Origin: Tetradesmus obliquus
Lineage: Eukaryota; Chlorophyta; Chlorophyceae; Sphaeropleales; Scenedesmaceae
Direction: 5' to 3'
Length of the DNA: 64,000 bases
Assembly (NCBI GenBank): GCA_030272155.1
Contig: CP126205.1
Span: forward strand, 2,034,501 to 2,098,500
The notes beneath the pieces were generated by a model, which saw nothing but the letters and a program-made list of their open reading frames with translations, ran no database searches and was not told where the DNA came from. Of this stretch, positions 2,946-61,543 are shown piece after piece. The position numbers were made by a program, and so were the translations under genes. Numbering within the stretch: the first letter of the stretch is position 1; the number at the start of each line of letters is the position of its first letter.

Positions 2946-5900
2946 TCAGCCAGGCTTCTGCTGTGCCGCCTGCAGCGCCTGCTGCAGCAGCGGCACCTGC
3001 TCTGGCCTAGCACAGGCGCCCAGCTCCTGTGCAGCAGTCATCAGCTGCAGTAGCTCTGGAGGTGTGAGGGCCAGCGGAGGGGCCAGGGCACGGTCCAGAA
3101 GCGCCTGCGCCACCTGCAGACAAGCAGCAGCAGTCAGAACGTGCTGAGAACCAATGTAAGTTGCATATATGCGCAAGCAACTGGTTGAGGCAGTGTGCGG
3201 CTGAGCCACCTGCAGGCAGCCAGGCGCGCAGCAGCAGCAGCAGCAGCAGCAGGAGTGGACCATTCTGAGAAGCTGCTCCACAGGCAAACATCATGACGCC
3301 CCTTGAACTTGCTTACCCTTGGAACCAGGTGCTCAGTCTGGCAGCTACGCCAGCGCAAACAGCAGATTGCCCTGCCTGTTGCTGAATGCTATCACATTCA
3401 AATCACACATCACCTCACCACCTCCGTTTCAATCGCGTTGTATGATTGCTCACCATTGGATCTGGCGCACATATAACGAAAAGATACCACCCTTCACATC
3501 TCCTACTACTAGGTATGTGCATAGCCTGGCAGCTGCTGCACAGCCCGCATAATGAGGACACCTTTCAGATGATTGCAGTTGCAGCATCTTGTCTCACCGT
3601 TGGGCTGGCGCATAGCCTGGCAGCTGCGCCAGCACCACCAGCAGCTGCGCCGCCTGCTGCTGCCTCATGCCGCCCGCCGCAGCGCCCACATCAAACCTTC
3701 AAAACCTCTTGCAGCTATCACATCCTTCTCTCACCAAAACACTTTGTGGTCAGCTTTTCAACCACTGCACATCACACATGATACAGACTGCATCCCATCA
3801 CAGCATCCACAATAAAAAGCTCACCGTTGGGTCTGGTGCATAGCCTGGCAGCTGCGCCAGCACCACCAGCAGCTGCGCCGCCTGCTGCTGCACATCACGT
3901 ACATGACACCAGCCATATTCTGGATGCAGTCGCACACTCTCACCCTTCACATCTTCTATTTCTTGATCTGAGCGTAGACTGGCAGCTGCTGCAGATCCCG
4001 CATGTGGAAAACACCCTCCAGATCAACAAGACAGTAACATGCATTACACTCGTTTTGCTGCGCCTCACCGTGGGATCAGGCGCATAGCCTGGTAGTTGTG
4101 CCAGCACCACCAGCAGCTGCGCCGCCTGCTGCTGCCCCATGCCGCCCGCCGCAGCGCCCACATCAGCAAACAGCACAGCCAGTGCATCACCCCCTGATGG
4201 AGGTGTGTTCCCTAGGCATGGCAGGCCAGCAATGAGCGCTGCTGCGAGCTGTTGGGGGTCCCAGCGCAGCACCAGCAGCTGCAGCAGCACGTCAGCGTCT
4301 TCTGCGTCCAGCACCTGTAGCATTGATGACAAGACATATGCAGCCAATGTCAGCAGGTGCAGGACGCGAAGAACAAGTTGCTTGCCGTTTGTATCTTTTG
4401 CAGAATTTGCTGGAGCTGGCTAGAATCCCAGCGCAGCACCAGCAGCTGCAGCAGCACGTCAGCGTCTTCTGCATCCAAGACCTACCAGGTAAAGAAACAA
4501 GCAGCGAAGCGGGAACGGTTGTTGATGAGTGACCAACAGCGAGAGGATAGTTACATGTGGGTCCTGGCACCATCTTAGATGAGTGACCAACAGCGCCATC
4601 AGCTCCAGATAGGCAGGGGCAGTTGCGATCGGGGCATGCGGTTGTCATTTGGCCGGGCAATTGCAGGCAGGGTTGCACGACTCGTGCAAATTGGCAAATT
4701 GAAAACGTTTGAAGCACATCTAAAAGCGTATCGTTTTTAAACGTATGAAACGCATGGTGCAACCCTGTTTGCAGGCAGCCTGTCAGCATCTTCTGCAACC
4801 AGCACCAGAGGTGGGCAGCAGTTGCAACTGCTCCGTTGCACACCTCGGATTGGTCCATGGCAGCACACAAAACACCCAAACAGACGCGGCAATATGTACC
4901 AACTGTATTGACTGTAAAAACAGAGGTCACCTGGTAGTTGAGGCCAGGCAGGGCCAACACCCCCTGCAGCACTGCTGCTGCATCACCAGCCGCCGCCAGC
5001 TGCGGCAGCAGCCAGTAGCCCCCAACAGCTGACAGCCCTTGGGTGGTCTTGCGCCTGCCCCTTCTTTTACTTCAAACGCATGCGCCCTTGCAACCGTGCA
5101 TCACCCAGCATACAGCAGACAAGTTGCAACACAGCATGGCCAGATTCACAAACAAGCTCACCTGGTAATTGAGGCCAGGCAGGGCCATCACCCCCTGCAG
5201 CACTGCTGCTGCATCCCCAGCCGCCGCCAGCTGCGGCAGCAGCCGCCGCAGCAGCCAGTAGCCCCCAACAGCAGACAGCTCGCCTGTGCTGCAGATCACA
5301 TGCACGCGCCCTTGATGCCTGTGCTGCACAACACAGTTGGACATACAGTAGCCACGCCATGAACAGAACACAAGAATGACGAAACAAAGCGCACCTGGTA
5401 GTTGAGACCAGGCAGTGCCAGTACGCCCTGCAGCACTGCTGCTGCGTCGCCAGCCGCCGCTAGCTGCAGCAGCAGCCGCCGCAGCAGCCAGTAGCCCCCA
5501 ACAGCAGACAGCTCGCCTGCCAGCAGCCTATCCTGCTGAATGCCCATCAGATTGGGGCTGGCCACCATCAGCGCTGCCTGTAATGCTTCGATCTCTGCTG
5601 CCAGATCACTGTCCGATGTTTGCTGCTGCTGCTGCTTGGCGATCTGCCAGTCGAGGTAGAGGGGCTTGTGGCTAGACAGCATTGCTGACAGGTCTGAGAA
5701 CAGTGCAACCACACTGTGGGGTGGGGCCTGCAAAGACAGGCAATGTGCGGTAATGCTGTGATCAGCGGCAATCCAGTGGGTTATGTTGTTATGTGCCACA
5801 GCTCCCCTGTGCAGTGCACCGTATGCTCACTATCCTGAAGCAGGAGCCGCCCCAAAATGCATGCAGACAGCCCGGAATCAAGCAGCAGTACCGCCAATAC

Positions 5901-6944
5901 ACTCTTGTGCTGAGCTGCAATGCTACATCCACTAGAAGCATTTTTTGTCATGCACATGCATTACTGCCAAGCCATGATCCTGCTGGCAAACACATTGCCT
6001 CCCTTGCCCTTGTACCCTACCTCCTTGTAGAACCGCTCAAAGCCTCCTGTGTCAGCATAGATGATGGCTGCCAGCCACTCCTTATCAGGAATGTAGCGTG
6101 CCTGGGCACACAGCTGCAGCAGCGCCTGAAAATCCTCCAATTCAAACTGTTTGAAACATGCAGGCGCTGCATGGATGAGCCCCTGCAGCCGATTTAGCTG
6201 CTGCTGGCTGCTGCAGGTCGCTGCAGCAGCAGCAAGCAGCAGGCGGCAGCTCTCTAGGTCGAGTGCCTGTGCTAGCATACTCTGCCGCTCCTGCTGCTGC
6301 TTGGATGCTGCATCTTGCTGTCGATCCTGCTTTTGCTGCTGCTGCTGCTGCTCCTTGCTGTGTAGGTCAGCAATATGCTGCCAGAGCTGTTCTGGTGTTG
6401 CCTGCTGCTGCAGGCCAATGCGCTGCAGTACTGCAGGTGCTTGCTGCTGCCATTGCTGCTGTGAGAAGGCTGCGGGTTGCTGCTGCTGCTGCTGCTGCAC
6501 GCTCTGAGCATGTAAAGACATCCGCTGCCTTGCAGGTTGTCTGCAGGAGCGAGAGCGGGCCTGCAGCAGTATATTTGAACTTGAGTCACAGCTACTTGTG
6601 TAAGAGGGTGTGTCCAACATATCATCCAACAGGCAGAAGTGCTTGCATACTGCTGCAGGTGCACTTGTTGCAGGCCAGCAAGCATGAAACTGCCATGCAC
6701 GATTGCTGCACGTAACTTGGCCAAAACCCACCTGTTTGAACCCAGGCACATGCGCAGCAGAGCTCTGCCTGCTCCATGTGGCACCCTACAGCAGCAACAG
6801 CAGCAGCAGCAGCAGCAGCAGCACCAGCAGCACCAGCAGTGGTAGCAGCGTGATGCACGTACGCTAGCCACTAACGCATCCACAAGCACAAAGAAGCAAT
6901 ATTAAAGTAATTGTATCACACACCTGGCTTGATCCAGGCAGCAT
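2946..6944 (-). CDS. Helical-repeat protein, possibly OPR-like; seven exons
   Basis: Exons in transcript order are 6944-6924, 6785-6732, 6560-6021, 5727-5395, 4314-4069, a doubtful 21-nt microexon 3337-3317, and 3113-2946, all joined in phase 0 (453 aa, or 460 with the microexon). The N terminus MLPGSSQGATWSRQSSAAH is Ser/Arg-rich and would suit an organelle transit peptide. A Gln-rich stretch follows. Then come paired amphipathic helices: DFQALLQLCAQARYIPDKEW, LAAAGDAAAVLQGVLALPGL, QQQAAQLLVVLAQLPGYA, LLQLMTAAQELGACARPEQ. The pattern 'D..LL...A.....P...W' resembles octotricopeptide (OPR) RNA-binding repeats, which are abundant in green-algal organelle proteins; that family link is inference from pattern. 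Its introns carry several copied pieces of exons 4, 5 and 7. Confidence 0.6.
3598..3895 (-). repeat. Two echoes of exon 5's 3' edge (helical-repeat gene)
   Basis: Segments 3598-3694 and 3826-3895 repeat the 3' end of exon 5 (4069-4160) including the GTGAGG-type donor region. They encode the same QQQAAQLLVVLAQLPGYA stretch with small changes. Shorter, more diverged traces occur at about 3510-3550 and 3958-4005. All lie downstream of the parent exon in the same orientation. Confidence 0.8.
4431..4492 (-). repeat. Echo of exon 5's 5' edge (helical-repeat gene)
   Basis: This copy matches 4258-4320 nearly base for base over about 50 bp (AEDADVLLQLLVLRWD in translation) and lies upstream of the parent exon in the preceding intron. 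Confidence 0.8.
4926..5283 (-). repeat. Two echoes of exon 4's 3' edge (helical-repeat gene)
   Basis: Segments 5160-5279 and 4926-5031 repeat the 3' part of exon 4 (5396-5520). Both encode ELSAVGGYWLL...LAAAGDAAAVLQG and then ALPGLNYQ followed by GTGAG-type or GTGACC donors. The copy at 4926 lacks a 9-12 bp CGC-rich piece. Because the reading frame is open through both, in-frame inclusion as extra exons is conceivable. Confidence 0.85.
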
Positions 6945-7489: not shown

Positions 7490-8760
7490 CACCCGACATG
7501 ACGAGCCTGTGGCCTGCTCAAACAATGCAGCTGGCACCATGCACATGTGGCAGCTCCTGTCCCTCCTGTCGTACCTGCCGTACATGTGTCTGCTTGTGGA
7601 CAGGATGCATGTTGTTGGTCTTCAAGACCAACTGAAGTTCAGTGTCTTGAGTGTCACGAGGGTCAGCCCTTCCATCTCCTGGGACACTGCTCTCTATCTT
7701 GTGGCGACTTCTGTTCCCTGTGCATGTGTCTGATTGTTTGTGCTGCTGCAGGATTCCACTGCCTGTTTTCACTGCCGTTAGTCTGTCGTGCAATGTTTGG
7801 GTGTTGCCGCTGCCTTTACACCATCACTCTGGGGGTATCAGCTACCACGAGCCAGGCGTGGTGTAAAGCACCACAGCCTGCATGCGCTCTATGCAGGGCG
7901 CAGGCCCAGCAGTCGAGCGCAAGGTGGCCCAGGCCGCTCCCTCATTGGGAACTCGCAGGTCGTGTGTGACCCGGACACAGCATCCTGGCCATGGGGAAAA
8001 GCCAGGTGCTGCATCGCCTGGTGAGGCCTTTGGGCCCTGTGACAGTTGCTGTTTTCCTGCCAGTGTCTGTATATGCTGCTGTGTGTTTATGTTTTTGTTT
8101 TCACTGCCTTCAGGCCAGCACATTGGGCATTGATAAGCAACCACGAGCCAGGCATGGTGTGAAAAAGCACCATAACCTGCATGCTCTCTATGCAGGGCAC
8201 AGGCCCTGCAATTGATTGGATGGTGGCCCAGGCCGCTCCCTCGCTGGGAACTGCAGGTCATCATGCATATGACCTGGACACAGCTTCCTGGCTAGGCCAG
8301 GTGCTGCATCGCCTGGTGAAGCTTTTTCCTGCCCTGTGATGGCATTGGTTTGGCTGAGTGTGTGTACAATGCTGAAGTTGCCTGGCATCAATGCAATGCT
8401 GCTTTGCAGATTAGTTATCTGATATGTGACTGAGCTGAGACTGTGGCTGATGTATTAACACAGCAAGGTTTTCACTAATGTTGCAACTTGCATTGAAGCT
8501 GAGCAGCCATACCTGGGAGGGGATTGTGCAGCTGCCACATCAGCATTGCGAAAACGTTTCATGTGCGCAGGCAGCGCTGCAGCTTTGGCAAGAAGCTCAA
8601 CTTTTTGCTGGAAGCACATTGCAGCTGTGCTTGCAGCTGCCAGCATACCATGTGCATTGCATAACAACCTTCAGAGTTGCTGCTTACAGGCGGTCCTTCA
8701 GACTCTGTAGTGCGCAGCTGCTATGGCTTTTGCTCAAACTGTCTGTGTTGCCGTATCACA
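7490..8760 (+). repeat. Dispersed repeat, copy A (inverted relative to copy B)
   Basis: This stretch matches the reverse complement of 31200-32440, strongly over the central 600 bp and more loosely toward the ends. It contains two internal monomers about 285 bp apart (near 7842 and 8130), each carrying CACGAGCCAGGCRTGGTGT, CTATGCAGGGCRCAGGCC and GCATCGCCTGGTGA. No convincing coding region, terminal repeats or target-site duplication could be read, so the class is undetermined; a non-autonomous element or satellite-bearing repeat is possible. Several short ORFs on both strands are by-products of the repeat. Confidence 0.8.
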
Positions 8761-9806
8761 GGCATGATTAAACGTCCGTGCAGCGCCACCTGTGTTTAGG
8801 CGGGAGCAGGTTACTTCCCGCCTGCGCCGCAAGGAAATTGGCTTTACTGGCTTATCACTGCAACCATAACCAACGTAAAGCATAGTTATAGTAGTAACAA
8901 TAATATAAGAAGAAGGCGACCACAGCTTGCAGCCTTTGTTCAAAATTGAACACATAATCAGGTTCAATGCACTTGAGCTTCGAAGCTCACACCTTTGCAT
9001 CGGTACATTAACTATGCAATATATGCGTGAGCGAACTGAGGCAAGTGGCTTGTGTGCAGTTTGTAGCACTCAAGCAGCAGTCGTGCAGCACTGCTGGCAT
9101 GCCCACGCCTTGAGCCATGCGCACATGTGCATGCACGCACATGCCAGCATTCTACCAGTTTCAAGTGCGAGAATGCAAAAGCATGCGCACAGCGGGGCCG
9201 GTTAGCTCAGCCTGACATGGCGTCGGTGCTGTTGCATCATGCTCAGCAGCACTGCTGCTCTGATGCCATCGCATAATTCACACTGCACATGGACCTCTTG
9301 AACACGCAATCAAACATGGTTGCTGAATGCCGAGCTGATAAAACAGGACATTCGGCATTCAAGAAATTGCGTAGCAACCTCCTTCATGCAGCGTGGCAGC
9401 TGTACACACTCTCATGTCATTCAACTTTGGACATGCCACTGGCATGCTGGCAGCATTTGACACTGTGTGCTGAGCAGCTGCAGGCATTGCCAGTCAATGT
9501 TCATTCAGTTCAGCAATCAAATTGTTGCGAGTGAGAGTGTGTACGGCACCGTGCCAGCCCTCTAGGAACATTGGGGTTACCCAACCTTTCAACTATTTTC
9601 CTTCCTGCCCCTGTGCCTGCGCGCAACCCCAACATATTGCCCAAACACGAGCCCAACCGCACGTGAATGCAGAGTTGATGTAGCGACAGCGTTGTTGGGA
9701 TGTTACATGATGGGAGAGTCAGCTGCAGCCACACACGGCTGCCCAGTTGCAAGCAACCCAGCTGCCAGCAGCATAACCCCACCGCCAAATGCACAAAGCA
9801 ACGAGA
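8761..9806. other. 3' flank of TAF2
   Basis: No gene is supported. It holds the 3' UTR of TAF2 (- strand) and spacer that becomes AT-richer near 8880-8920. A short inverted repeat (AGGCGGGA with TCCCGCCT) lies at 8797-8822. Confidence 0.45.
9703..9707 (-). promoter_or_regulatory. Candidate polyadenylation signal TGTAA for TAF2
   Basis: TGTAA on the - strand lies about 100 nt beyond the TAF2 stop codon. TGTAA is the usual polyadenylation signal of chlorophycean algae; assignment here rests on position only. Confidence 0.45.
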
Positions 9807-10503: not shown

Positions 10504-10538
<35 letters not shown>

Positions 10539-13500
10539 GGCAGCAGCCCCGCCTGGAAGTGACAGCTTCTTCAGCTTTGTGATAGGCTTGCCACGAGGCA
10601 GGCCACTGGCAGTGAGAGCAGGGCCACTCTGAGCTGCTGCTGCTGGCACTGCTGCTGCTACTGAACCTGTTGTTGCTGCTGTTGTTGCTGCTGCTTGAAT
10701 GCCTGCAGGAGCAGCAGGCGCTGCCTGAGCTGCGGCAGCGGCAGCAGGTACCTGCTGCTGCTGTGGCACTTGCTGTTGTTGCTGCTGCTGCTGTGGCGCT
10801 GCTGCTGCAGGCACTTGCGCAGCAGGCGATGCAGCAGCAACAGCAACAGGCTGTGCCGCTGCTGCTGCCGCCGCTGCTGCCTGTTCGGAGCTGGGTGCTG
10901 CGCCTGCTGACATCACTGCGCTGCTGCTTTGCAGCACACTGCCTTGCTCAGCACCTGCAGAAGCAGCAGGTGCTGCCAGCCCAGCTGCAGAACCACTGGC
11001 AGTCTGCTGCTGCTGCTGCTGTGGTGCTGGTGGCATGCCTGCAGATGTTGTTGCTGCAGATGCTGCTCCGCCTCCGGATGCTGCTGCTGCTGCCATTCCT
11101 GGCGTGCTTGGTGGCCGTTTGAGTTTGACGCCCAGTTTGAGTTTGGTGATGGTGGTTGCGCCAGTCTGGTTGAGGGACATGCCACCTGCAGAAACAGATA
11201 TGCGGCAAGCACAGGACGTTGCTGCGCAGGCTACTCAATGATACAGGTTATAGCCAGGCAATGCATCACCGGCAGCGGGAACGTGTGCCAAAGACAGCTG
11301 TTGCTGTTGCTGATGAATGAATAGGCTGTGATCTGGGGTGATGCCTGGTGGAAGCAGCCATGATGTGCCCAACAAAAGCGGATGGACAGTAAACACCTGC
11401 AGCAACAAGGCACGCGGGAACACCCAAGATGAACCGCAGGCTGGCTGCACAACATTGCATGACGACACTCAGCGCTCTCCCACGACACAGCCCATGACCA
11501 AGCACAGCGAGCAACAGCAGCAGCATGTGACGAGCCCTGACAGTACACACAGCCGCACCTGCAGAGGCTGCAGGCCTGCTGCTGCGAGCTCCAGCTGCTC
11601 TGCCGCCACCTGCCACTCTAGGCATTTTGACAATGCGCTTGCATTCAAAACCGCTCCAATGCACTCAGCGAGATCTAGAACACCAGGTTGCAATTCAATG
11701 CACAGCAACCTCCAAGGCATAGCAATACAGTAGGCACGGCGACAGCAAATACTACACCCCGAGTGCAACACACAGCCGCACCTGCAGAGGCTGCAGGCCT
11801 GCTGCTGCGAGCTCCAGCTGCCCTGCCACCCCCTGTCACTCCACTGGGTGCAGCGCCACCACTGGCAGCAGGGCCCTTGGTAGGAGTAGCACCAGCAGCA
11901 GTGAGGCCTGCTGCTGTGTGAGCTGATGCTGCTGGCAGCAGGGCCTCCTCCTCCTCTTCCACACGCTCTCTGCAAATGTGTCACAACAACATGTGTAACA
12001 CATTGTTATACTGTTACAAATGTGTTAGTGACATGGCGGGCTTGGAGTCATTCTCATTGGAGTGATTGCGCACCGCTCTGCATCCGTCCCCAGCAGCAGC
12101 ATGCATCACCTCGCAGACACACAGAGCACATGAACCCTGCCAACCAACTGAAACAACAGATAGAAAGCCAACTTTGAGCCAAGTGGACCAACCTGTACAG
12201 TGTGGCGGGCTGCCCAGCCAGTTTCTGCAGCAGCATGAATGCCAGCTGCCTTACAGCCGGCTCCTCATGCCTCCACATCAGCTGCTGCAGCGATAGCAGC
12301 GTTGCCACACTGACTGGTAGCACAGGCTTGGATACAGCGGCAGCAGCAGCCGCTGCTGCTGCAGATGCCGCCTTGGCTGCTGCTGAGGCAGCAGCAGAAG
12401 CTTCTGCTGCAGCTGTGGCATCTTGCTCAGCTGCCGCTGTTGCTGCCGCTTGATTACTGCCATCTGCCGGGGCAGCAGCAGGTGCAGCAGCACCTGCTGC
12501 AGCCTGCTCAGTTGGAGCTGCAGCATCTGGTGCTGCTGCTGCTGCTGGGTCAGCTGCAGCTCCAGTAGCACCAGCTGCCGCTGCTGCTGCATCGCCTGCT
12601 GGTAATGCTGCTTGTGCGGCAGGGTCAGCAGCTGCAGCAGCAGCGGCAGCAGGATCTGCTGCAAACACTGCAGCACTTGCAGCTGCTGTGGCTGCTGCTG
12701 CCGCAGCTGCCGCCTCTGCCGCAGTAGCAGCAGCCGCTGCAGCTGCCGCCTCTGCCTCTGCTGCTGTTGCTGCCGCTGCTGCAGCAGCCGCTGCTGCTGC
12801 CAGCATACCATCAGGCAGTAATGCTGCTGGGCTGAGCTCACAATACCCCTGCTGCTCCAGCTGGCCCACAAGCAGCAGTGCCTCCTTGAGTATGTTAACT
12901 CGCATTGCAGCAGAAGCCTCCTGCTGCAGCAGCTGCAGCGCTGTGCCTAGCACTGCATCTAGCAGCAGCGGCGGCTGGTATGCCAGCAGCTGCTGCAGCA
13001 GGTCGCCGTACCTGGCTTGCAGCGCGGCTGCTTGCGCTGCAGCAGCAGCAGCAGCTGCAGCTTCTGCGGTTGCATCGTAGCTGTGATGATGCAGTGTGTC
13101 AGCTGCTGCAGCAGCGAATGCGCTGCCGTCCGCTGCAGTACCTGCTGATTGCTGCTGCCGCTGCTGCTGCTTCTCATCAACATCCATAGCATCTGAAGCT
13201 GCAGCAACAGGCACAGCTGCTGCTGCCGCTGCTGCTGCCGCCTGCATTGCTGCTGCTGCCAGGCTCCGCAGAGCTGCCTCTGACTGCGCTGCTGCCACCC
13301 GCAGCAGGCAGCTGTATGCAGTTGCCTTCATCTGCCCACCTCTCACACTGCTGCTGCTGCTGCTGCTGAACCCTGCTGCTGCTGTGCCAAGTCCTGGCCC
13401 TGTGTATGATAGCAGCAGCTGAGCCACTTGGTCAAGCACTGCTGCTGCTGCCGGGTGCTGTAGCTGCACTGCTAAGTTGGTTGCTGCAGTGAGGCATGCA

Positions 13501-13573
13501 CAGCCCAGCACTGCATTGTGTGTGGTAACAACTTCCTCGTGTGCGAGCTGGCGGTCAATCTCGTGCAGCACCT

Positions 13574-13631
<58 letters not shown>

Positions 13632-13707
13632 CAACACATGGCTGCCGAGCAGTGTGCGTTCACCACTTCCTCGTGTGCCAGCTGGCGGTCTATTTCATGA
13701 AGCACCT

Positions 13708-13750
<43 letters not shown>

Positions 13751-16700
13751 GATATAAACAAGAGGCTGCTGAGTTGTGTGTGGTCACCACTTCTCGTGTG
13801 TCAGCTGGCGGTCGACCTCGTGCAGCACCTGCAGCAGCAGCAGCAGCAGCAGGAGCCAACCATAACATTGCAGACTGGTGCAGCCAAGCCCTGTGTGCAG
13901 TAGCAGCCCACATGATACGTTGATTTGCACGGCAGTCAAGCACATAGCAAAGTACACGCGCACACACACTGTCTGCCACGTTTGTAACACACTTCTCACC
14001 CTTGCCAACTCTGCCGTGTTTTGTTGCCGCAGCTGACCCGGACTTGCCACCAGGCCTGCCAGCCAGCGGCCATCATCCAGCACGGTGCACATCAGCAAAC
14101 ACCACAACCCACGAGGCTCTTTCAAAAGGCTGCTGCCACGCGTGCCGTGCTGTGGCAGCCAACACGGCATGCGGGCCTAAACAGCAACCCACACGCGTAC
14201 AAAGAATTACTGGTAGCAGTTCACGCACGCTCACCTTGGCCAGCTCAGCCGTGTTTTGCAGCCTCAGCTGGCCCAGCGCCGCCACCAGGCCAGCCCCCCA
14301 GTAGCCACCTTGCACACGACACAGCAACACAAAGAAACGCTACAAACACACAATATCTATAAGGCCGCTGCCAAGCCTGCTGTGCAGTGACAGCCAACTA
14401 GACACTCCCGCCTCGCACACAGCAGCCACAGTGCGATTAGCAAACGCGCACACACCGCCTGACGCATGTCGAATTCACCTTTGCCAACTCGCCAGTGTGC
14501 CGCAGCCGCAGCTGCCCCAGACCTGCCACCAGGCCTGCCAGCCAGTGGCCGTCATCCAGCGGGTTGCTGCTGTTGTCATTGCAAGCGAGCAGCTCCAGCA
14601 GCAGCGCCAGCACTTGCGGCGGCGTGAAGCTGCAGGTGAACACAGCAGCAGCAGCAGCAGCAGCAGCCCTGTGTGTGAGATGATGGGGGCAGTAGCAACA
14701 ACATCAGCAACAGCAGCAGCTGGCTGTTGTCATTGCAGGCAAGCAGCTCCAGCAGCAGCGCCAGCACTTGCGGTGGCGTGAAGCTGCAATCACAGGCGGC
14801 AGCAGAAGCAGCAGAGACCTGGCCTTCACCTGGCATGCATGGATGAGATCTTTCTGATTCACCAAAACATGCACCCCCATGATCTCAAAACCCGCAAAGA
14901 TGCCGCAACCTGTTACGCCTGTCGCCACTGACAGCCTTGCAGACTGCAGCCATAAAAGAAGCACAAATTGCCACCAGCACATGCATTGTCTTGCTCACCC
15001 CTCGGCGTCCCGTACAGCAGCCAGTGCAGCAGGCAGCGCCTGGCTCAGCAGTGCTTCGCCCAGGTCTTGAAAGCTGTTGGGGCGCAGCAGTCCAGTCAGG
15101 GGGTCATACAGCCGCTCCCTGCAAGTGCAAGCGGCAGTTGGGTGGGCGGCAGAAACACAAAAGCTGCTTAGGAATTGTGCAGCTGTGACACAAGCAGCAG
15201 CTCCCTGCGAGTAGCAGAAGCAGTACAGCAGCGGGGTGACAGGAACCCTGATCAGGGCTCAGCAGTGCCTCCCCCAGGTCTTGGAAGCTGTTGGGCCGCA
15301 GCAGCCCTGTCAGCGGGTCGTACAGCCGCTCCCTGGCAGCAACAAGGCATGGGCAGCAACACAGTGGTGCAACATCTGGTTCAACTAAAAACGAGAATGG
15401 ATGCGTGTTGATCAGCTGTGATGCGTTAAGCATCAAGGATTGCACAAACGCTCCCTGCGAGCAGCACCAGCAGCAAAGCAGGAGTGTCATTTGACATGTG
15501 GTTACAGCTCAGCAGCAAAACCCCAGGTCTTGGAAGCTGTTGGGCCGCAGCAGCCCCGTCAGCGGGTCACACAGCCGCTCCCTGCAAGTGATAAGAGACA
15601 CAGAGTAAAACAGTGGCGCTCGTTGCACAGAATCAATGTATAAGCGATCCAAGCCCTTGTCATGCATCATGCATTCCAAGTGTGTACATCATCATGGTTG
15701 CGGCGCTAGGGACAAACCGGGTGTAGGCAAAACAACGCACCGCGTGTAAGCGATGAGCTCCCGCAGCGGCCGGTCCCCTCTACACACAGCTGACGCGCGC
15801 CCCAGCGCAAGCGCAGCATCCACGCGCACCCTGCAGCGTCAGCAGCAGCAGCAGCAGCAGCAGCAGCGGCAGGACAGTTTCGGTTGCTGCGTTATGCACA
15901 GTTGACTGCAGAATAGACTGATTTGCTTGCGTGAAACATAGTGCTGCCCAAAGTGGTGGCCTGGCATAGTGCAGCCCACCGGCAACACTAGGCCAGAGTA
16001 CTTTTCTACTCAACACACCGACCAATACCGCAGGCACATTGCTCAACAGCATATCACGTTGCGGCAACGTACTGTTGCTGCTGCTGCTGCTGCTCCTTTT
16101 CCACTGGTCCTTGCACACACCAAACCTGCAGAAGACCGCGGGGTTGCGCATGACGCCTGCCAGCACTGAGCACAGCAGAATACCCGATGTGTTATTTCCC
16201 ATACTTTTCGTGAAAGCATGCTGCGCAGCGCACCTGCAGAAGACCGCAGGGTTGCGCATGACGCCCGCCAGCACTGTGGCGATGTAGTCAGACATGGCCT
16301 GGCTGCCTGGCCCCATCTGGCGTGACAGCCCCACCACCGCCTGCGCCTGAGCAACCACATCCTTGCTGTGCTCCAGCTGCGAAAAGAGGGTGCAGGGCAG
16401 CACAAAACAAACGGAGTCAGATCAAAGTACAGCAGGCCACAGCCCAACCACAGCCTGCGCCTGAGCCACCACACCATTGCTGTGCTCCAGCTGCAGCAAT
16501 GAAATAACAGCAGGGCATTGACACATTTGCAAGCCGGTGCGTAAAACAAAGCAGGTTGTGCCTGCGCATGAGCAACCACATCCTTGCTGTGCTCCAGCTG
16601 CAACATGACACAGCAGCAGCAAGCGAAACATAGCATGTGAGCTCAGGCTTCCCAGACGCAGATCGCATTGAAGGTCAAAGCTGCAGCCTGTGCCAAGGCC

Positions 16701-18033
16701 ACCACGTGCTTGCTGTGCTCCAGCTGCAGCAATGGAACAACAGGGCCGCGCAAAAGAGAAGATAAGGCAAGGCAGGCGGCACAACGTCTGTGCGTGCTCC
16801 AGCTGCAAGATGCCAAAGCAGCAGCAAACGCACTAGAGCATGTGAACTCAGGGGTTCACGAAACTGAATATTTAGGTTATTTAGGTTACTGAGGTTATTA
16901 AAATCATAAGTTGTAGCCTGCGCCTGTGCCACAACATTCTTGCTGTACCCCAGCTGCACAAGAACAGCGCACGGGAGCCCAACAGGCACAGCACAGCCAA
17001 TGCATCTAGAATCCAGAGCACGGCGCTTGCTACTTTCAGCCCCTTTCAAACCACATGTAAGGCCCACTGTGCCCGTTTATATTCTCCAACATCACACAAC
17101 AGCGCTGGCCGCACCTGCAGCGCCCACCAGTGTGCAGGCTGGCGCAGGCTGACCGCAGCCAGCCACTCCTGGCCGCTGTCCAGCGCCACCCACAGCACAG
17201 GGATACCCCGCAGCTCCGCCTCACTCACATCGAGCTCCTCAGCTGCACCTGAACACAGCAGATGATGTGGCAAATGATGTGAGAACAGGTGCAGGAAAGC
17301 AAAGCTGTGCAATGCCGTGCATCTCCCCTTACACTGACGTCCAGATCTACGCTGCACGTGTAAGGCAGACGCAGAGGATGAACAGCGCAAACGTGTCAGA
17401 ATGACTGCTGCCACGACATGGCCACCCTTGCAGCTCAGCCTCACTCACATCGATTGATTGATTCTCATTATCAAATCTATGAAACCAGATGTTCGTAGCT
17501 TCGAACCCCACCTGCTGCCCAAGAGGGTGCGCCGCGCGCGCCACGCCCGCCGCCTCCCGCTGCTGCGCGCTGCTGGCGGCGCCGTTGGTCGCCAAGCTTG
17601 CTGCTAACCTTGAGCTCGTGCAGCGAGTAGCAGGCAGTTGCGCCAACCTGCACATGTGTGCAGCAGCCAGCGCGCAGCAGAACACATACACACAGCAGGA
17701 ACACGTGTAGGAAGGCATGGCAATGATCCGCACCAGAATTACAGGACAGTGACCGACATGAGACTATGGTGCACAGGTAGCAGATATCGGCCGCTGCATG
17801 TACCTGAGCAGCATAAGCAAGCAATGCATGCAACACTTTGTTACAGCTTTGTTATATCACTATCACCCACCTGTATGGGGTGCTCCTCCAGCACATCAAG
17901 CTCCCTCACAAGAACCTTCAGCTGGCAAGTCGGCACGCCAGCCTGAACCCCAGCAGCCACTAAACCCTCAGGACCGCCAGGCAAAACCCCAGGCGGCAAA
18001 CCCTGCTGCTGCGCAGCCGCCGCAGCTGCAGCT

Positions 18034-46470: not shown

Positions 46471-47060
46471 AAGAGCGCTGTTGGGATAAGCTAGCTGGGC
46501 TTGGAGCTTCTTCGGTGCTTGTCCATCCTTTGGATATGACACGCTTGAGCTGTGCTTGCGGCTGTTTGCTGTATTGAGGAGCGTGTGTCGGCTCTGCGCA
46601 TGAGTTGTGTGCAAGCGCGATGGACTGTCGGGTTGAGCTGTCTATGTTTTTGATTGTGTGTCTCAGTAAGAGGGCTGTTATAGAAGCATTGGCTCAGTTT
46701 GGAGCTTCTATGCTGCTTGTAGGAAATGCATATGGAAATGCATTGGAGATGCATCTGGCGCAGTGTGGAGCTTTTGTGGTGCTTGTCCTCCCATGGGATG
46801 ATGACACACAACACTTGCGAGCTGCCTGTGTCTGTCTGCTATGTTGAGATGCAAAGGTGTATTGGCTCTGCGCGTGCATCGTGTGTGTTTGAGTATGTGG
46901 TTTGGCAAGAGGGCTGTTGCAGCAGCACTTGGCGCTGTGTGGTGCTTCTGTGGTGCTTGTCCTCCCATGGGATGATGACACACCACACTCGAGCTGTGCC
47001 TGTGTCTGTCTGCTAGCAATGTTGAGCAAGGTGTATCGGCCGTGCGTGTGCATCTGGGTG
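46471..47060 (+). repeat. Tandem repeat, about three diverged units of 140-240 bp
   Basis: Units begin near 46471, 46669 and 46907 with AGRGGGCTGTT-type sequence and contain GTGCTTGTCCTCCCATGGGA-like blocks followed by a run of TGTGTCTGTCTGCTA. Copies are 70-90% alike by eye. Confidence 0.75.
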
Positions 47061-47520
47061 TCTTGTATGCGGCCTGTGCGCCACCACACATGACGCCCTA
47101 CATGCGTAACATGCGCTACATGCGGAACAGCCACCGTAGCTGTGCGTGTGCATCGTGCGTAGCAGCATCCTTGTGTCTTGTATGCGGCCTGTAAATCGCG
47201 TGTACATGAAGCCTTACATGCGTAACAGCCACCACAGTAGCAAACATCTTGCCTGCTCATACGCAAGGTCTGCAACTGCGGAGCGCTTTGCGTGGGGCGG
47301 TTTTGTGTTTGGGGGTTGTTTTTGGGTTGTGGTGGAGGGCAGCTCACACGGTGGCGGCTTAAGATGCTCACACAATGCCTGGGGCATCTAGCACGACGCC
47401 GGTGTTACAAAAGTGTTATGTCACTCTGCAATAACGAGGCAGGGGCGCTGGGAATTTTGGGTGTCAGCAGCTGTGCAGTCTCGCATTGCTGTGTATGGGC
47501 TGGCTTTGTGTAATCAACGG

Positions 47521-48256
47521 GCCGTTGCTGCATGTTTTGCATGTGTGCTGGGCCACTAGGCTCAGACACTTTGCTCAGCGGCTAGGCTCTCATACTGTGC
47601 CTTCCAGGCACTTGTGTGTGTGCTTTGCAAGGGTATGTGCTGCGCAGTGTGGTATGGTTTGGCATCGTCAGTTTCAGACATGCGGAGCATGTTACAGCGT
47701 CAGCAGCTGCAGCACTAATTGCTGCAGGCTTCAATGGTAACCGCTGCTGCATGTGGCTTGCATGTGTTCTGAGCCACTAGGCTCAGTCACTGGGCTCATA
47801 CTGTGCCTTGCAGGCACTTTTGTGCTTGCTTTGCAAGGGTAGTGTGCAGCTGTGCAGTATGGGTGTGGCTTGGTTCAGCAGTATACGCTTTGAGACGTGC
47901 AGAGCAGGATACAGCAGCAGCAGCTGCGATGAGCGCTGCAGCCTTAATTGCTGACCGTTGCTGCAGGTGTTGCACGTGGCCTACGGCACCAGGCTCGGCG
48001 CCTGTATGCAGGTCACCTGCCCAGTAGTACTGGGCTGAGGCACTAGGCTCATAATGTGCCTTACAGGCCCTTGTTTATGTGCTGTGCATGGTCATGTGCT
48101 GCTGCGCAGTATGGTGTGGTGTGGTTCAGCATCATCAGTGTCAGACATGCAGAGCATGTGACAGCGGCAGCAGCTGCAGTACTAATCGCTGCAGCCTTGG
48201 ACGCTGACCGCTGGCATGTGTTGCCTGTTTTCTGAGCCACTAGGCTCAGACAGCAG
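47521..48256 (+). repeat. Tandem repeat, three units of 210-257 bp plus a partial fourth
   Basis: Units start near 47522, 47742, 47952 and 48209 (partial). Each carries CCACTAGGCTCAG or a variant, a TGTGCCTTRCAGGCMCTTGT block and a CAGACATGC.GAGCATG block. The unit is absent from the paralog A flank, so it arose after the duplication. Confidence 0.85.
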
Positions 48257-51200
48257 AAACTAGGCTCGGCCACTAGGCTCAGCCTTTAAATCTAAATTCG
48301 GAATCAAACTCGAAAGTACTGGATGCACGGGTACATCTGCAGGCCGGCCTGGGGCTGCACCAGCAGCCATATTGCCTGTTCGCTTTGTGTGTGTCAGCTT
48401 GTCTTGGCGTATGCGCCTACTGCTGCTATTTGCACGAAGGTTGGCTTGTCTCAGAGGTTGGGGTTGGCCGGCTTTTCGGCTCCTGTTAGTGTGTTGACAG
48501 TAGAGATGCACCAGCTGCTGCTTGTCACAGCCTTGCTATGAGGTCAAGGTGATAGGCAAATGATTGCAGCTGGTGCTGTGTATTTCTTGCCTGCGTTGCA
48601 ACTGGCTGCGCGTTGTGAAGGCCCATTGTGCGGTGACAAAGGTGTTTGTCGCCAGGCAATCTGGCCTGGCGCTGCAGATCTGTCATACCCTCGGGCAGGA
48701 GTGCTATCCCTGCTGCATGCCTGGTGTTGTCAAACCAGTGCGCACATCTGGTTGAGCCATGGCTAATCGCTGTGGAAAGCCACCACCTATAGTTTGTGGT
48801 GCTTGCCTGCAGACGCCAGGATGAAGGTTTGCATCATCATCAGCACCATTCATGATGATGGATGGTAATGATGATGCCAATCCTGTCTTCCTGATGAAGG
48901 AGGGGGAGAGGCAACAGCAACAGCAGCAGCGCAGCGCAGCTGCGGTACTATTCGTTGCAGGCTGGAACGCTGAGAATGCCAGCCGCCGCTGCTGTTGTAT
49001 GACGGCCTGGCTGTGCGGCTTCTGAGTTCAAGAGGCTGCAGCATTTTAAAAGCGTACCTTTTGCGGCTGCTTACAGTCATGTGGTGTGCAGAAGTGTGCG
49101 GAGCTTGCCGATTTGCAGTGCAATATCTCTGCAGGTCTGAGTAACGGCTCACGTGCTTACTGTTGGCTGCATTGTGTGCTGCACATCAGTATGCCTGGCA
49201 GCCAAGGGTCTTGCTGCACTGTTGGTCTGCTTTCTGTTGGCTGCATTGTGTGCTGCATATCCGTCCGCCTGGCCGCCTAGGGCCTTACGATACGGCTGCA
49301 CCGTTGTTCTGCTGTACTCTGGTACTGCAGTGCGTCAGCACTGTCTGTTACTCCATAGCTTTTGGAGGTCTTTGTGCGCTCAGCGCTGCCCTTGTATTGC
49401 GGTGAGAGTGTGTGTGTTGCGTGCATGCTCCCTGTTACATGAGATAACAGGGCAGCGTGAAGTTACCGGCTGGTGTTGCACTGTGCTTTTTGGAGTGCGT
49501 CGACGCAGTTATTGTGTGGTTTTGGATGTTTGGGGTGCCTCTTGGGAGTGTGCCTGCTGCTGCGCAAGGCATGCACAGGGGTTTTGGGTTTTGGAGTTCA
49601 GGGAATGCAGGCTCCAGCTGTTGTTGGCTGCAGGTTGTTTTTGAGTCCAAGGACTGCAGGCCTCAGCGGCTGCTGGCAGCAAGCAGCAGTTGTCCGCCTG
49701 CGTGAATTGCCTTCCTGCTGCCTGCGTGAATTGCCTTCCTGCTGGCTTGACTGAGCAACCACACCATGCCAGGCCTAACACCCACGCAGAATCTGCCATC
49801 TTCCTTCTGCCTGGGTGGAAGCCCAGCTGGTGCATGTTCTTTTGTGTCCGTCTTTTTGCTTCTGTGGCTCTTGCTGTTTGGTGAAGCCAAACGGCAGTGC
49901 ACAGTGGGGCACCTCTTTTGTTCAGCCATTAAGGTGCTGCCAGCACGTGCCTTTTGTAGTTCAGAGATCGCACTGCCTGTTGGGTGTGCCCTTCTACCCC
50001 TATTGGCATGCCAGTGTGCTGCTTCTTGTCCTGCTGCCGCTGTGTTATGCACTCTCAGCTCAGGGAACCAGGAGTTGGCACCCCAGTTGCTGCTGCTTTG
50101 CGCTGCAGACTTGTGCGGCTGCTGCCACGTCGTCGCTGCTGCTGCAAAATGTGGCAGCTGCACGGGTGTCAAAAGGCCAGCAGAAGCGCCAATAGCTTCT
50201 GCACTGGAGGAGAATATAGCACGTGCTGCGCTGATCATGTTTGAAACCACTTGAATTCAGCGGCTTTGGTTTTCAATACGGAGTGCGACGTTTGCTATGA
50301 GCAGCGTTGCTTGGTGGTGTTTGTTAGAGGCATAGCTCATCACTTGTCTATTTGCTATCTGCTGCCATAGGTGATCTGTTATTGCGATAGCTGTGGTGTG
50401 CTTGGGGCTCATAAGCATTGTGTGATGGGAGGTTGAGGCCGCCTAACCGGCCATGCGTTGAAAGCAGCCGTGTTGGGCGGTTGTGGGTATTGCTTGGCTC
50501 TCTCGCTGTGCACAGCGCAGCGCATCTCCCCAGTGCCGCACTTGTTGCGTGCTCAAATGCATGCTGGTGTATGTTGTGCTTGTGCCGTCGACAGATGCAA
50601 TGTGGGCAGGTTTTGACGCCTTGGCTGCAGGCGTGGCAGAGAGGGCAGAGCAGGGTAATGTTTGGCGCGCTGTAGCTGCGCTGGTTGGTTTTGTTGGTTG
50701 TTACGGGCTGCTGCTTGCTATTGCATCAGATACCCAGTGGTTTTGGTGCGTCGCCTGTCTGCTATTACAGATCTTTTTGGCCCTTTGCGACTAGGCTATA
50801 GTTGCATTGCATGCGGAGGCTTTCTACGTGCAGAGTTGGTGGCCGGTATATGTTCTGGTACACACATTTTGAGACCACTGCTTGGTACGCTTGTTGACTG
50901 ACACGCATTATGTGTCACCAAAAACACTTTGAACTTGTTTGCGTGTGTGCAGTTTGCACAGGCAGCTGATATGGCTGTGGGGTGTGACGGGTTCACCAGA
51001 GCTGGTGCCTTGAGCCACGTGCATTCCGTCCGTCCGCGATTCGACTGTCAATTGCATGCTTCCAGACAGCTGGCACGGCGCGAGCGCTCCGGCTGCGGGC
51101 CTTGCATTGACCCGTGTGCAGGCTGGTTACTGACCCCAGCACCATATGCATGTGCTGCTTATCAGCAGGACCAGCTGACACAGCGCAGCATCCGGGTGTG

Positions 51201-56600: not shown

Positions 56601-58086
56601 CTGCTCCACACACATCCAGCGCAATGCACATACACAGAAGCAGAAGCTCCTGGAAGCCTCACATGTTTGGAAACCGGCAGACAGCCATGCGCAACCCACC
56701 AGTGTTGGCACAGAAAGCAGCACTGTGAGTGCCACATCCTCCTCCTGCTGGCCGGCCATCAGCATGGCACGGCAGCCCATAGCGTCTTTGATTCGCACGC
56801 CGCAGCAGCAGCAAGCTAGCTCGCAAACCCCACACACAGTAAATGGCTGCATGCCAGCGCCCTGCAGCAGCATCAGGTTTCTGGAGCCGCGTGCTGCGCA
56901 CAGCTGCTCAGCTATCAGGCTAGAATATTCTTTGTCACGAGCCAGCAGAGCAGGCATTGGCTGATGTTTCAGCACCCCTGTATTGAACTGGTCTCCCAAC
57001 TGCAGTGCAGCTTGCTGGGCTGGCAATGCCTTGCTGCTTTTTAATCAGCAAGGCACGCGCCTGCCACAATGCAAGGTAACGCATGTCTGCCGGGCAGCAG
57101 CAGCACACTGAAGCACGCCGACACACCCGGACAGGCAGCAGGTCTTTGAATAATGCTCTACTGTACGATATACGCAGCAGGCTCAGCAGCTGCAGGTAGC
57201 TCACAAACATGCATGTATGCACAACCCTCCAAAACACGAGCACTACACAGTCAAACTGCGCATACGGCCGCATGCAAGCTTGCAAGCAGGCGTGCGGCAG
57301 TCATGCACATGATGGCAAACACCCACGCATTAACAGCCAAGCCAGAGCAAGGCCAATGCACATGCTGGTTGTGTGTGCATGGCCTCTGCAGTGGCTATGG
57401 CTGCACACCAAGCTTTCCATATCAGGAGCAGTATGTAGCGTTCTGTCAGTTGAGGCACACGCCAGGGTTCAACCACACGCCGCAACATGGCTGCTGCAGC
57501 TCGCTGAACACTCGGCGCGGCTCAGCATGGGGGGCAATTGTGCAGCAAGGCTGCCTGTGCACCACGTGTTTTGGCGTAACAGCACAGTGCAAGCCCGCCG
57601 CTACACATTTCTTGATGGTTCATGTCAGGGACACACCCACAGACGTACTGAAATGGTACACACAAGTTTTTAAGGAGTCACGGCAGGCCTAAAACCACCC
57701 GCAGAATCGACTACATCACACCGTAACACATACACGCAGCCAGATGCTGCAAGATATGCCCCCCGATTCCAGCACCTCAGCACGGCCAGACATTGAGGAT
57801 GCCACATGTCAGCGACATGATGCGATGCCCATGCCAGTGTGTGCAAGGTGCAGCCTTGGTGTCTGCAGATGACATCAACCACGCAGCGCCGTGCCAGGGG
57901 TGGTGCTGCAGCTGATGTGGCAACAGCAAACTCAGAACCTGCACGCGCCGCGGCGCATACAGCATGCCTGCCGCACACACAGCTTGCGAGTGCTGAGGCA
58001 CCGCTGGCATGCCCACATCTTGCACAGCTCAGCACGCCGCGTGACAGGCTGCGCCGCATGTGCTGCGCCGCGGGCCTTACGCCACA

Positions 58087-58165
58087 AGTGGTGCAATGCT
58101 GGCAGGGATTGCCGGCATGCCCCACATCTTGCGGAAGTCCTCAAAGCCCACGGTTCCGTGGCAGT
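58087..58165 (-). repeat. Echo of CDPK exon 7 3' part
   Basis: About 75 bp repeat the [20 protein letters not shown]-coding end of the last exon, downstream of the stop codon at 58199. Confidence 0.85.
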
Positions 58166-58198
58166 CTGGGCTGCAACTGCGCCTCAAGGCATCAGGCC

Positions 58199-61100
58199 TC
58201 ACGCCACCAGCGGCACAGTGCTGGCAGGGATGGCCGGCATGCCCCACATCTTGCGGAAGTCCTCAAAACCTACAGTACCATCGCAGTCCGCGTCCACCTC
58301 CTTGACCATAGCACTGGCCATGTCCAGCGACATCTTGCGGCCAGCAGGGCCCTTCATGGTTGGCCGCTCATCCTGCAGCACCTGTGGCAGCAGCAGCAGC
58401 AGCAGCAGCATGTGTCTGGTGAGTGCTGGCACACATATTGCGGCCAGCAGGGCCCTTCACGGTGGGCCGCTCGTCCTGCAGCACCTGCAAACGGGTGAGC
58501 AGCATGTGCACGAGGTTAGTGCTGGTACGAAGGACATGAAGCCAAGGAACGCAGTCATCGCCATCACACCAGAAACATAGGGACTACAGCATTCACAACA
58601 CGGAGACAACAAAGAGGACACATAGCAGACAAAGAGAAGGACACAACCTGCACAGACCCTAAACCCACCTGAGCCAGGTCTTCCACGCTGATGTAGCCAT
58701 CCCCATCACGGTCCAGCTGCTCAAAGCTGCGCCGCACCGCGTCCCTCCTCTTTGCCACGCGCGCGCTGTCCAGCATCGCCGCAATGAACTCCTCATAGTC
58801 AATCACGCCCTGCCCGGACATGTCTGACACCTGGAAGAGCTCGGCCATCTCGTCTTCGTCAATGGCAGCGCCGACTTGTGCCAGGGCCTGGTGCAGGTCG
58901 TGCGCGTCAATGCGGCCGTCGTCGTCCTTGTCCATGGCCATGAACAGCTCCTGTGGCAAGACAGGAAGCAGCAGCAGCAGCAGCAGCAGCAGCAGAGGGT
59001 CAGCAGCAGCAGCAGCCGTTGTTCAAGAGCAGCGGGCTGAACTTGTCCAAAAGCACGAACAGCTACTGGGGGCAGCAGCAACAGCAGCAGCAGCAGCAGG
59101 GAGCCAGCAGAGGACCAGCAGATGCCTGCTGTAAGCAGTGCTGGTGATGCAAGCAGGAGGTGGTTTTAAGCCTTGCCCAGGCGCCTCACCCGCAGCCGGT
59201 TCACATCCTTGTCTGTCAGCGTGCGCGCCAGCACCACCAGCGCCAGGCGCTTCATGTGGTTCATGTTGGCAAACGCGCGCAGCCGCCGCACCATGTGTGC
59301 GCCCAGCGCCGCCGCAGGCGCAGCCGCGGGGCCGTCGCTGAGGAACCAGCGGTGCTGCAGCAGTGCGGCTGCTGGGGAGCGCTGCTGCGGGTCCATCACC
59401 AGCATGTCTCCAATCATGGCCTTGGCAGCCTCGGTGACGTTGTCCCACTGCAGGCGGACACAGCAGCAGCTGGTGGTTGTGCGGCAGTTACACCATGAAT
59501 GGCTACTCAGCAAAGCAGCATGCAAAGCATGTCTTCGATCCTGGTGACGTTGTCCCACTGCAGGCGTTGTGGCAAGCAGGGACGTCACGCAAGTGCTAGG
59601 TAACTTTGCAGCAAACGAGCCGGTTGACACCTGATCAACTGCTGATCAGATTGGCCAGCGGCCATGCAAAAGCCTCAAAACTGATACGCAGCGGCATGCA
59701 ACATCAGCTGACAGCAGCGACTCAGGCAGCCGCCTGCTGCTGGGCTCACCTCGCGGTTCACGAAGCTGTAGCTGCCCTGCTGCACCTTCTGCAGGATGCG
59801 CGAGTCGCTCTTGCCGCCAAAGGGCGGGTAGCCGCACAGCAGGATGAACATGATCACGCCCGCAGACCACACATCAGCCGCATTGTTGTAATCGCGCCGT
59901 AGCACCTGCGTGGTCAGCAGAAGCAGTGCAAATTTTCAGCGTCAGGAACGCAGCAACTCGTTTTGTTATGCGTGTTAGATGTGCACCTTGCCACAACACC
60001 TGCTGATAGTGTTGTGCTGGACACCAGATGCAAGCTCCCATCAAGCTGCCACCATATCACCTGCTTCGGCTCGAGCAAGGCCGCACCTCAGGCGCCACGT
60101 AGTAGGGCGTGCCAAACTTCTGGCTGAGGCGCTGGCCTGGCTTGCAGAACTCGCTGGTGCCAAAGTCGATGACCTTGAGCACGGCATCCGGGCCCTTGCT
60201 GGTCAGCAGGATGTTCTCGGGCTTCAGGTCCCTGCGGGAGGCAGATGCAGCCAGATGGAGTCATATGCAGCGGATGACTGTACTCATCATATATTAGAAG
60301 AGAGACTGTGTTGTTCAAATTGAAGCGTCACAAGCAGCATTACATGCCCCCGGCGCGGGTCGCGTACACTATCACCATGCGAACTGCAGCAGAAACGCAT
60401 GCATGCAACAGCTTGCTACTCAATCGCAAGCGGAGCACTGCTGCAGCTGCCTTCTCGGCGCGCCAAAACGCTCAGCAACTGCGCCCCCAGCTCTCTAAAC
60501 GCCTCGAATCACACCAAGCCCACCTGTGCACGATGTGCTTGCTGTGTGCGAAGCTGATGAAGTCCAGCAGCGCGCGCATGATCACAGCTGCATCGCGCTC
60601 GCTGAAGTGGCCGCGGCTGATGATGCGGTCAAACAGCTCGCCGCCGCTGCACAGCTCCATGACCAGGTGGTAGTGTGCATCATCCTCAAACACGTCCTGC
60701 AAGCCCACCACGTGCGGGTGGCCATGCAGCATGCGCATGATGGCCACCTCCTTAATGATGCCTGCAGCAGCAGGGGCAGAGGCGCACAACACAGCCGGTT
60801 AGCATCATTGGCAACAGTGGCTGGCATGGGTGCCGGCAGCAGGCGGTTTGCTGCAATTCCCACGCCTCAGCTGCTGCTGCTGCTGCTGCAAGTTGAGATG
60901 TGCAGGGCTAGGCGTGCTGCAAGGGCAAGCTGGTAAGCCACTCGCGCGTTGTGCTGCTGCAATTCTTGGCGTGCCATGCACTGCCACCGCTGCAAAACTG
61001 CCATTCGCTCCTCCATGTCACAACTGTTCCCCCTGCTGATGCTAATGCTGTGCATTTTGATCAATAGTGCCATCAAAGCTGTTTGCAGCTGGTTGCTGTG

Positions 61101-61543
61101 AATCCTGACTGTGCTGTGCAGCGAGCAGGGGATGGAACATCCCCAGCACACCTCGACTTCCACAACTGCGAAAGCATACTGAGACCAACACTGCAGCGCA
61201 ACCGCTGCAGTTCCGTCTGCACAGGAAACCCACCTTCTCGCTGCTTGAGGTCTTCAGGTGATTTCTGTACAGTTTTCACCGCAAACTCCTGCCCAGACTT
61301 GATGTGGGTGCATGCCTGTACCTTGGCAAACGCACCGTGCCCAATGATGCGGCCAATCTGGTAGGTATCCTCAAACACGCGCTGCCGCGCTGCATCCAGC
61401 TCCTGTCGTGCCTCTGCAAGGGACTTTTCTACCTCATCATGATACTCTGGCGCTACAGCCTTGCAGCTACAGCTGCGGTGTGGAGATACCACGCCTCTGT
61501 CCTGCAACCTGGCGCTGCCCGCACACCCGCACACATTGCCCAT
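58199..61543 (-). CDS. Calcium-dependent protein kinase (CDPK), seven exons, 523 aa
   Basis: A Ser/Thr kinase regulated directly by calcium. Exons: 61543-61234, 60761-60524, 60231-60087, 59905-59750, 59447-59190, 58950-58669, 58381-58199; phases agree. The N terminus MGNVCGCAG fits N-myristoylation (Gly2) plus palmitoylation of nearby cysteines, so membrane attachment is likely; it is the first in-frame ATG. Kinase domain about 61-330: glycine loop [11 protein letters not shown] lysine 90, HRDLKPEN (182-189), DFG (205-207), YYVAPE. The autoinhibitory junction is about 340-369 ([15 protein letters not shown]). Four EF-hand loops lie at 376-387, 412-423, 449-460 and 493-504. Loops 1, 3 and 4 end in Asp rather than the usual Glu at position 12. 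Length and domain order are typical of the family. Confidence 0.95.
58435..58495 (-). repeat. Echo of CDPK exon 7 5' edge
   Basis: This copy repeats [15 protein letters not shown] with its TTTGCAG acceptor, upstream of the parent exon at 58381. Confidence 0.85.
59528..59570 (-). repeat. Echo of CDPK exon 5 5' edge
   Basis: About 28 bp around the acceptor (CTGCAG|TGGGACAACGTCACC) recur upstream of the parent at 59447. Confidence 0.8.

Follow-up and report, generated by a model that had tools for sequence, protein, structure and literature searches.

The 64-kb stretch of the Tetradesmus obliquus genome analyzed here (C15:2034501–2098500, referred to as the window) contains many partial copies of exons, which lie inside the introns next to the exons they derive from. 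The copies keep the orientation of the parent exon and follow a side rule: copies of a 5′ exon edge are found upstream of the parent and copies of a 3′ edge downstream of it. Dense and gene-specific short tandem duplication across splice sites, with subsequent decay of the copies, is probably the explanation of this pattern. What is remarkable is the number of copies and their unevenness among genes, rather than the rule itself.

The initial annotation of the window had described such copies in six genes. They could be found in five of these, namely the helical-repeat gene, TAF2, the deaminase, the 112-aa gene and the CDPK gene, while the arrays of the sixth, paralog B, are located in non-coding sequence.

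Samples and Gene Models

The genome comprises 104.66 Mb in 17 contigs. In addition to the window we analyzed a 240-kb sample drawn from seven contigs elsewhere in the genome, giving 304 kb in total. Exons were predicted with a gene finder after a second, stable self-training; the first was not used, as it had drifted towards GCA repeats. The GC content is ∼57%, and the training gave the splice consensus cAG|GTGAGc for donors and CTGCAG|Gt for acceptors. Published values for T. obliquus likewise include 57% GC, with a mean intron length of 462 bp that is the longest among five algae (PMC5966456). The models S1.0, S1.3, W0, W1, and W6–W9 are repetitive, single-exon or doubtful and were omitted from the edge counts.

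Orientation and Side of the Copies

Local self-matches (distance ≤1500 bp, score ≥26, simple repeats masked) were almost exclusively direct, with 102 direct and 0 inverted matches in the window and 220 direct and 2 inverted in the sample (322 and 2 in total). At a looser score of 20 the window gave 146 direct and 17 inverted matches. No self-matches at all were seen in shuffled controls of the window and of S1, in which the letters were permuted inside 300-bp blocks.

We then compared 550 predicted exon edges from window and sample with their own flanking introns, with length-matched introns of other genes and with reverse complements. The 3′ edges matched their own downstream intron in 37/272 cases, the upstream intron in 6/230 and introns of other genes in 2/816. 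For the 5′ edges the corresponding numbers were 27/278 upstream, 1/230 downstream and 3/834 in other genes, so both exon edges are affected, as had been claimed. In total, the expected side was matched for 64/550 edges, the wrong side for 7/460, and reverse complements for 3/1010 (window alone: 18/84 on the expected and 0/74 on the wrong side). Self-alignment of introns with their flanking exons against unrelated pairs, a check named by the initial annotation, was thereby carried out on the 304 kb, and the unrelated introns matched in just 5/1650 cases.

A total of 256 edge/copy events were recorded, 226 of them in 18 retained genes. After removal of copy-like parents and of copies coinciding with other predicted exons 113 remained, and 99 of these obey the side rule. 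The 14 exceptions are all from S5 and S6, at predicted exons 30–165 bp long, and we take them to be mostly unrecognised copies. In the window all 29 filtered copies obey the rule (18 copies of 5′ edges upstream and 11 of 3′ edges downstream); 19 belong to the merged deaminase/TAF2 model, five to the 112-aa gene, four to the helical-repeat gene and one to CDPK. Three further window copies are not among the 29: the copy of a 5′ edge at 4413–4483 (parent exon 4069–4314) and two copies of terminal coding stretches, at 58073–58166 and 35308–35363, past the end of the respective gene.

An edge copy is present in 56/290 introns, and these have a median length of 461 bp as compared to 269 bp for introns without a copy. 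The splice dinucleotide is retained in the copies with mean identities of 0.93 and 0.94, in line with the suggestion that they create decoy splice sites. An unusually high conservation of splice sites in the copies was also considered and rejected as an artefact of a set that required it; an unbiased set is close to the expectation for a fixed parent and a drifting copy. The orientation, the side rule and the wide range of copy ages described by the initial annotation are thus borne out, and the copies found in the 240-kb sample show that the pattern occurs elsewhere in the genome as well.

Tandem Duplication and the Side Rule

In a direct tandem duplication of a unit that spans a donor, the first copy is joined to the exon and the second is then located in the intron; for an acceptor the situation is reversed. 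Since a direct tandem duplication across a splice site can place its copies in no other way, the side rule is the hallmark of tandem duplication rather than of a dedicated copier. We propose that short direct tandem duplications recur in a subset of genes, probably by unequal exchange or slippage. A duplication fully within a coding exon would usually harm the protein. One across a splice site may be tolerated, as the original site would still adjoin the remainder of its exon, with the surplus exon piece becoming intronic and presumably harmless. Free of constraint, the copies would subsequently decay. Insertions and deletions (indels) would erode the intron part most quickly, and old copies might be recognisable solely by the exon piece.

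Ungapped blocks of at least 24 bp were obtained for 86 of the 99 rule-obeying copies, and the main table of codon counts holds one copy per parent edge (57 pairs). Tandem duplication predicts that intron is duplicated along with the exon piece, and the adjoining intron is indeed similar in 33 of these pairs (8/16 in the window), of which 28 keep the register to within 12 bp. A repeat run with different shuffles gave 34 pairs rather than 33. Among pairs with ≥90% identity the adjoining intron is similar in 27/37. Of the exon matches located in flanking introns, 55/71 extend to 8 bp or less from the exon edge, again as predicted for tandem duplication. The nearest copy is found at a distance of 98–233 bp (10th to 90th percentile), and two young arrays consist of units arranged head to tail, with periods of 118 and 91 bp.

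Codon Positions and the Silent Offset

Mismatches between parent and copy in the 57 pairs are distributed as 56/43/167 over the three codon positions (18/13/55 in the window and 38/30/112 in the sample). In neutral copies at equal mutation rates the share of third positions is at most half, and the observed share lies above this limit. The excess is greatest in near-identical pairs and fades toward neutral in old pairs, with 16/13/85 mismatches in the 37 pairs of ≥90% identity and 40/30/82 in the 20 pairs below. A model with a constant silent offset of 0.11 outperforms neutral decay without one by 27.8 log units (maximum 2.9 in 25 neutral simulations) and lasting constraint by 14.4 log units (maximum 2.3 when constraint was simulated, likewise 25 times). 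Tandem duplication followed by neutral decay but no offset was therefore rejected by codon positions and offset fit, and lasting protein constraint, once favoured, lost to the offset fit. A silent offset followed by neutral decay is thus supported by the model fits. Divergence in 34 pairs was 17.0% in the intron part, 14.7% at third positions and 4.0% at first and second positions together; both silent classes accordingly show a similar offset.

The offset is most naturally understood if parent and copy derive from separate alleles, between which differences had accumulated earlier under coding constraint. From their origin, or shortly afterwards, the two would hold different old alleles, with about 0.11 silent and zero protein divergence. 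Such a difference could arise by exchange between homologues or by later recombination that brings another allele beside the copy. An allelic origin requires a very diverse or hybrid population. Diploid green algae such as Auxenochlorella are known, and allodiploid hybridization is also mentioned in the literature.

It is unlikely, in our judgment, that the copies are instead used exons, with both versions spliced into some mRNAs and temporarily under selection at the protein level. The share of third positions (0.63, bootstrap 0.56–0.70) lies above the neutral ceiling of 0.5 at equal mutation rates, as expected for used exons; the gene finder accepts 29/99 rule-obeying copies as exons, and early use followed by release would likewise yield a silent offset. 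However, the constant offset fits better than lasting constraint, and the second splice site that a cassette exon needs is not enriched in the copies: the median best score was 3.92 for acceptors as compared to 3.65 in random windows, and 1.83 for donors as compared to 1.95. The distances between parent and copy have no bias to multiples of three either (17/15/25 modulo three, counted by hand in the 57 pairs). In addition, the copy at 3593–3663 carries a 1-bp deletion although it is 97% identical to its sister copy, and in the one human TAF2 alignment the copied peptide TGLLRPNSFQDLG is represented by a single version.

Weighing of the Explanation

Several observations weigh against tandem duplication with an allelic offset. 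All exons are predictions of the self-trained gene finder. Significant similarity in the intron part is missing in 24/57 pairs, 10 of which are ≥90% identical in the exon part, and 16/71 exon matches fall short of the edge, six by 9–18 bp and ten by 39–149 bp; the latter ten are unexplained or due to chance. In 15 pairs the copy lies outside the gene model, and here the mismatches are 26/26/39, with no third-position excess past neutral, but several of these models are poor. The unfiltered rows of the sample give 212/249/271, of which the dropped repetitive gene S1.0 supplies 131/187/115 and the rest 81/62/156. A silent diversity near 0.1 would also be extreme for a single species. Finally, junction-spanning pairs outnumber pure intron pairs by 63:9, which is above the ratio in both of our simulations unless indels are heavy.

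This last ratio comes from 221 non-redundant pairs, 53 of them within skipped genes, which include 63 edge/intron, nine exon/intron and 29 intron/intron pairs (20 of the latter are copies of copied edges and nine are pure intron). It would be accounted for if exon–intron junctions were duplicated by dedicated copying, for example by repair or template switching tied to transcription or splicing in certain genes. The strong differences from gene to gene and the pairs whose similarity ends soon past the splice site point the same way. Yet much of the excess is predicted by geometry and detectability. When duplications were placed at random in a first simulation, the ratio of edge to intron pairs was only 1.2 to 1. 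A second one, based on unaffected introns, gave 1.1, 1.9, and 5.4 to 1 at rising indel rates, and the intron part could still be detected in 0.91, 0.76, and 0.48 of the edge pairs, respectively; the 0.58 found in the real data falls between the latter two values. The indel rate that matches the observed loss of intron similarity corresponds, by eye, to a ratio of about 4 to 1. The junction excess is therefore largely, but not surely, due to geometry and easier detection, and a residual excess of about two-fold is possible. The similarity of the adjoining intron, also in the pairs of ≥90% identity, and the arrays in non-coding sequence likewise speak against dedicated copying. We thus hold it to be improbable, and a special process that copies exon borders as such, as envisaged by the initial annotation, is not supported.

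A stronger version of the allelic idea, in which the process preferentially duplicates the exon–intron junctions of certain genes and draws its letters from the homologous chromosome, so that introns would archive lost exon alleles, seems doubtful to us. An assembly artefact in which both haplotypes of short stretches of a heterozygous genome were placed in tandem would give the silent offset without protein change expected between two haplotypes, but is very improbable, as many of the copies are old (15.5% divergence at first and second positions in the 14 pairs of the top quartile), the arrays are graded and the copies lie inside contigs several megabases long.

Uneven Susceptibility of Genes

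The initial annotation had stressed the density of copies across neighbouring genes. Copies are many, but they are not uniformly distributed, and some genes have none. Among genes with at least four edges, all 14 in S2, S3, and S9 are without any copy, while elsewhere 16/25 have some. None of 20,000 trials in which the genes were shuffled among places gave such a distribution; this figure overstates the case because the three places were chosen after the data had been seen. Even neighbouring genes differ: in S4 (L021–L024, C2:6600001–6640000) the gene S4.0 with its 20 exons has copies for 0/36 edges and S4.2 for 6/20. Susceptibility is thus gene-specific. None of six composition and length features explains which of the 39 genes with at least four edges carry copies. 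The gene model at L011:6914–9009 consists largely of diverged in-frame repeats and was left out of all edge counts.

Copies in the Genes of the Window

The genes of the window belong to unrelated protein families according to Pfam, among them ARID/HMG box, CDPK (kinase and EF hands) and cytidine deaminase. TAF2 was identified via solved relatives, and the helical-repeat and 112-aa proteins had no Pfam family match at E 0.001. DUF3707 (pherophorin family) gave a single match; the pherophorin family is large in volvocine algae. Taken together with GC content and splice signals, this points to a sphaeroplealean alga.

The helical-repeat gene is on the minus strand. Its exon A (5395–5727, with the donor just below 5395 according to gene model and sequence) has two downstream copies of the 3′ edge and donor. 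Copy 1 (5162–5286, 125 bp) is 92% identical with codon-position mismatches of 1/1/8, and copy 2 is found at 4918–5036. Exon B of the gene model (4069–4314) has both edges copied. The 5′ edge and acceptor recur upstream at 4413–4483 (87%). The 3′ edge and donor recur downstream at 3820–3891, with mismatches of 0/0/7 to the parent; the second copy of this edge is the 3593–3663 copy mentioned above, its sister being this first one. A further decayed copy at 3311–3384 is 76% identical to the copy at 3819–3890.

TAF2 is also encoded on the minus strand. Exon 16234–16376 has four copies of its 5′ edge (16439–16982) and one of its 3′ edge downstream (16124–16168, 96%). The 5′ edge of exon 14999–15118 is copied twice, first upstream at 15256–15335 (mismatches 0/0/8) and again at 15522–15590 (0/1/5). 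Exon 14493–14629 has one copy of the 5′ edge (14723–14805) and two of the 3′ edge (13996–14308). The 5′ edge of exon 12193–13571 is present in two copies (13652–13837) and the 3′ edge of exon 11782–11969 in one (11545–11618).

In the deaminase gene, on the same strand, the 3′ edge of exon 25323–25448 is copied downstream (25089–25253). A copy of the 5′ edge of exon 24114–24279 is located at 24353–24467 with a period of about 91–94 bp, and the 5′ edge of exon 23612–23782 is copied together with upstream intron at 23872–24083 (unit 197 bp).

In the 112-aa gene (plus strand), the 5′ edge of exon 34130–34251 is copied four times, at 33628–34109. These copies include the near-identical 118-bp array at 33751–34109, the 359 bp of which equal 3 × 118 + 5. 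The 3′ edge of the same exon is copied downstream (34332–34369), and the last coding stretch is copied past the stop codon (35308–35363, mismatches 3/1/0). For CDPK (minus strand), the 5′ edge of exon 58199–58381 is copied upstream at 58433–58487 (93%), and the last 90 coding bp are copied, with a stop codon, beyond the gene at 58073–58166 (mismatches 1/3/9).

Arrays in Non-coding Sequence and Dispersed Repeats

The conserved blocks behind the reading frame of paralog B have no codon periodicity, so the arrays of paralog B (46447–48252) sit in non-coding, 3′-UTR-like sequence. One tandem array (47522–48252, plus strand, spacings of 208–253 bp) is absent from the matching place in paralog A and represents duplications independent of exon edges. 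The interval between conserved non-coding blocks is 178 bp in paralog A (38988–39166) and 1005 bp in paralog B (47502–48507), the array having been gained in B. The sole copy resembling an exon end in paralog B is one of its last 67 coding bp (46156–46222). It is closer to the end of paralog A (38556–38622, 82%) than to its own parent (45935–46001, 76%), as if it had kept an older state. A 108-bp array of five units (39967–40510) lies downstream of paralog A, outside the region taken as coding, and was not counted as an edge copy.

An inverted dispersed pair (7519–8828 and 31098–32394) is about 78–81% identical and has internal direct repeats spaced 292–294 bp apart. The last third of the pair matches at least 22 other places in the genome, as would be typical of a mobile or repetitive element. 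The stretch at about 1765–2514 has at least 39 other matches in the genome, many on C11, C12, C14, and C15.

Known Systems and Implications

A literature search, with most subscription papers outside its reach, did not turn up an account of such a pattern. Minisatellite-type unequal exchange between alleles produces head-to-tail units near 100 bp that expand and are possibly transferred from allele to allele. The copies resemble minisatellites in their head-to-tail units near 100 bp, but the units span splice sites and mostly form small sets of diverged copies instead of long homogeneous arrays. Internal gene duplications were reportedly found to be frequent across eukaryotes by Gao and Lynch in 2009; here, in contrast, partial exon copies are located in introns, are frequent in some genes but missing from others, and have a silent offset. 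Introner-like dispersal finds little in its favour in the 2/816 and 3/834 matches to length-matched introns of other genes, in a comparison that was not a search aimed at introners.

Intron gain by tandem duplication (the Rogers model), with cases in ATP2A1 and in the potato RdRp gene, likewise involves direct duplications that include splice signals, and the protein can stay readable (PMC4974935, PMC3443670). In those cases an exonic AGGT segment or an intron–exon unit gave rise to a new spliced intron, whereas here existing introns are lengthened by junction copies with merely potential splice sites. Tandem duplication of an intron with parts of both flanking exons, as described for Arabidopsis TOUCH3 (PMC4974935), belongs to the same mutational class. 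TOUCH3 multiplies a whole intron, however, while the units found here typically hold one junction.

For gene finders the copies are a warning, as many were accepted as exons by the one used here. If the silent offset is allelic, the copies would gauge ancestral allelic diversity from a single genome. One in five introns (the 56/290 above) holds a dated and oriented record of splice-junction duplication, and if this applies genome-wide the introns form a natural series from birth to decay. Such a series would make it possible to follow whether duplicate splice sites are ignored, used or lost, and thereby to test ideas about the lengthening and gain of introns.

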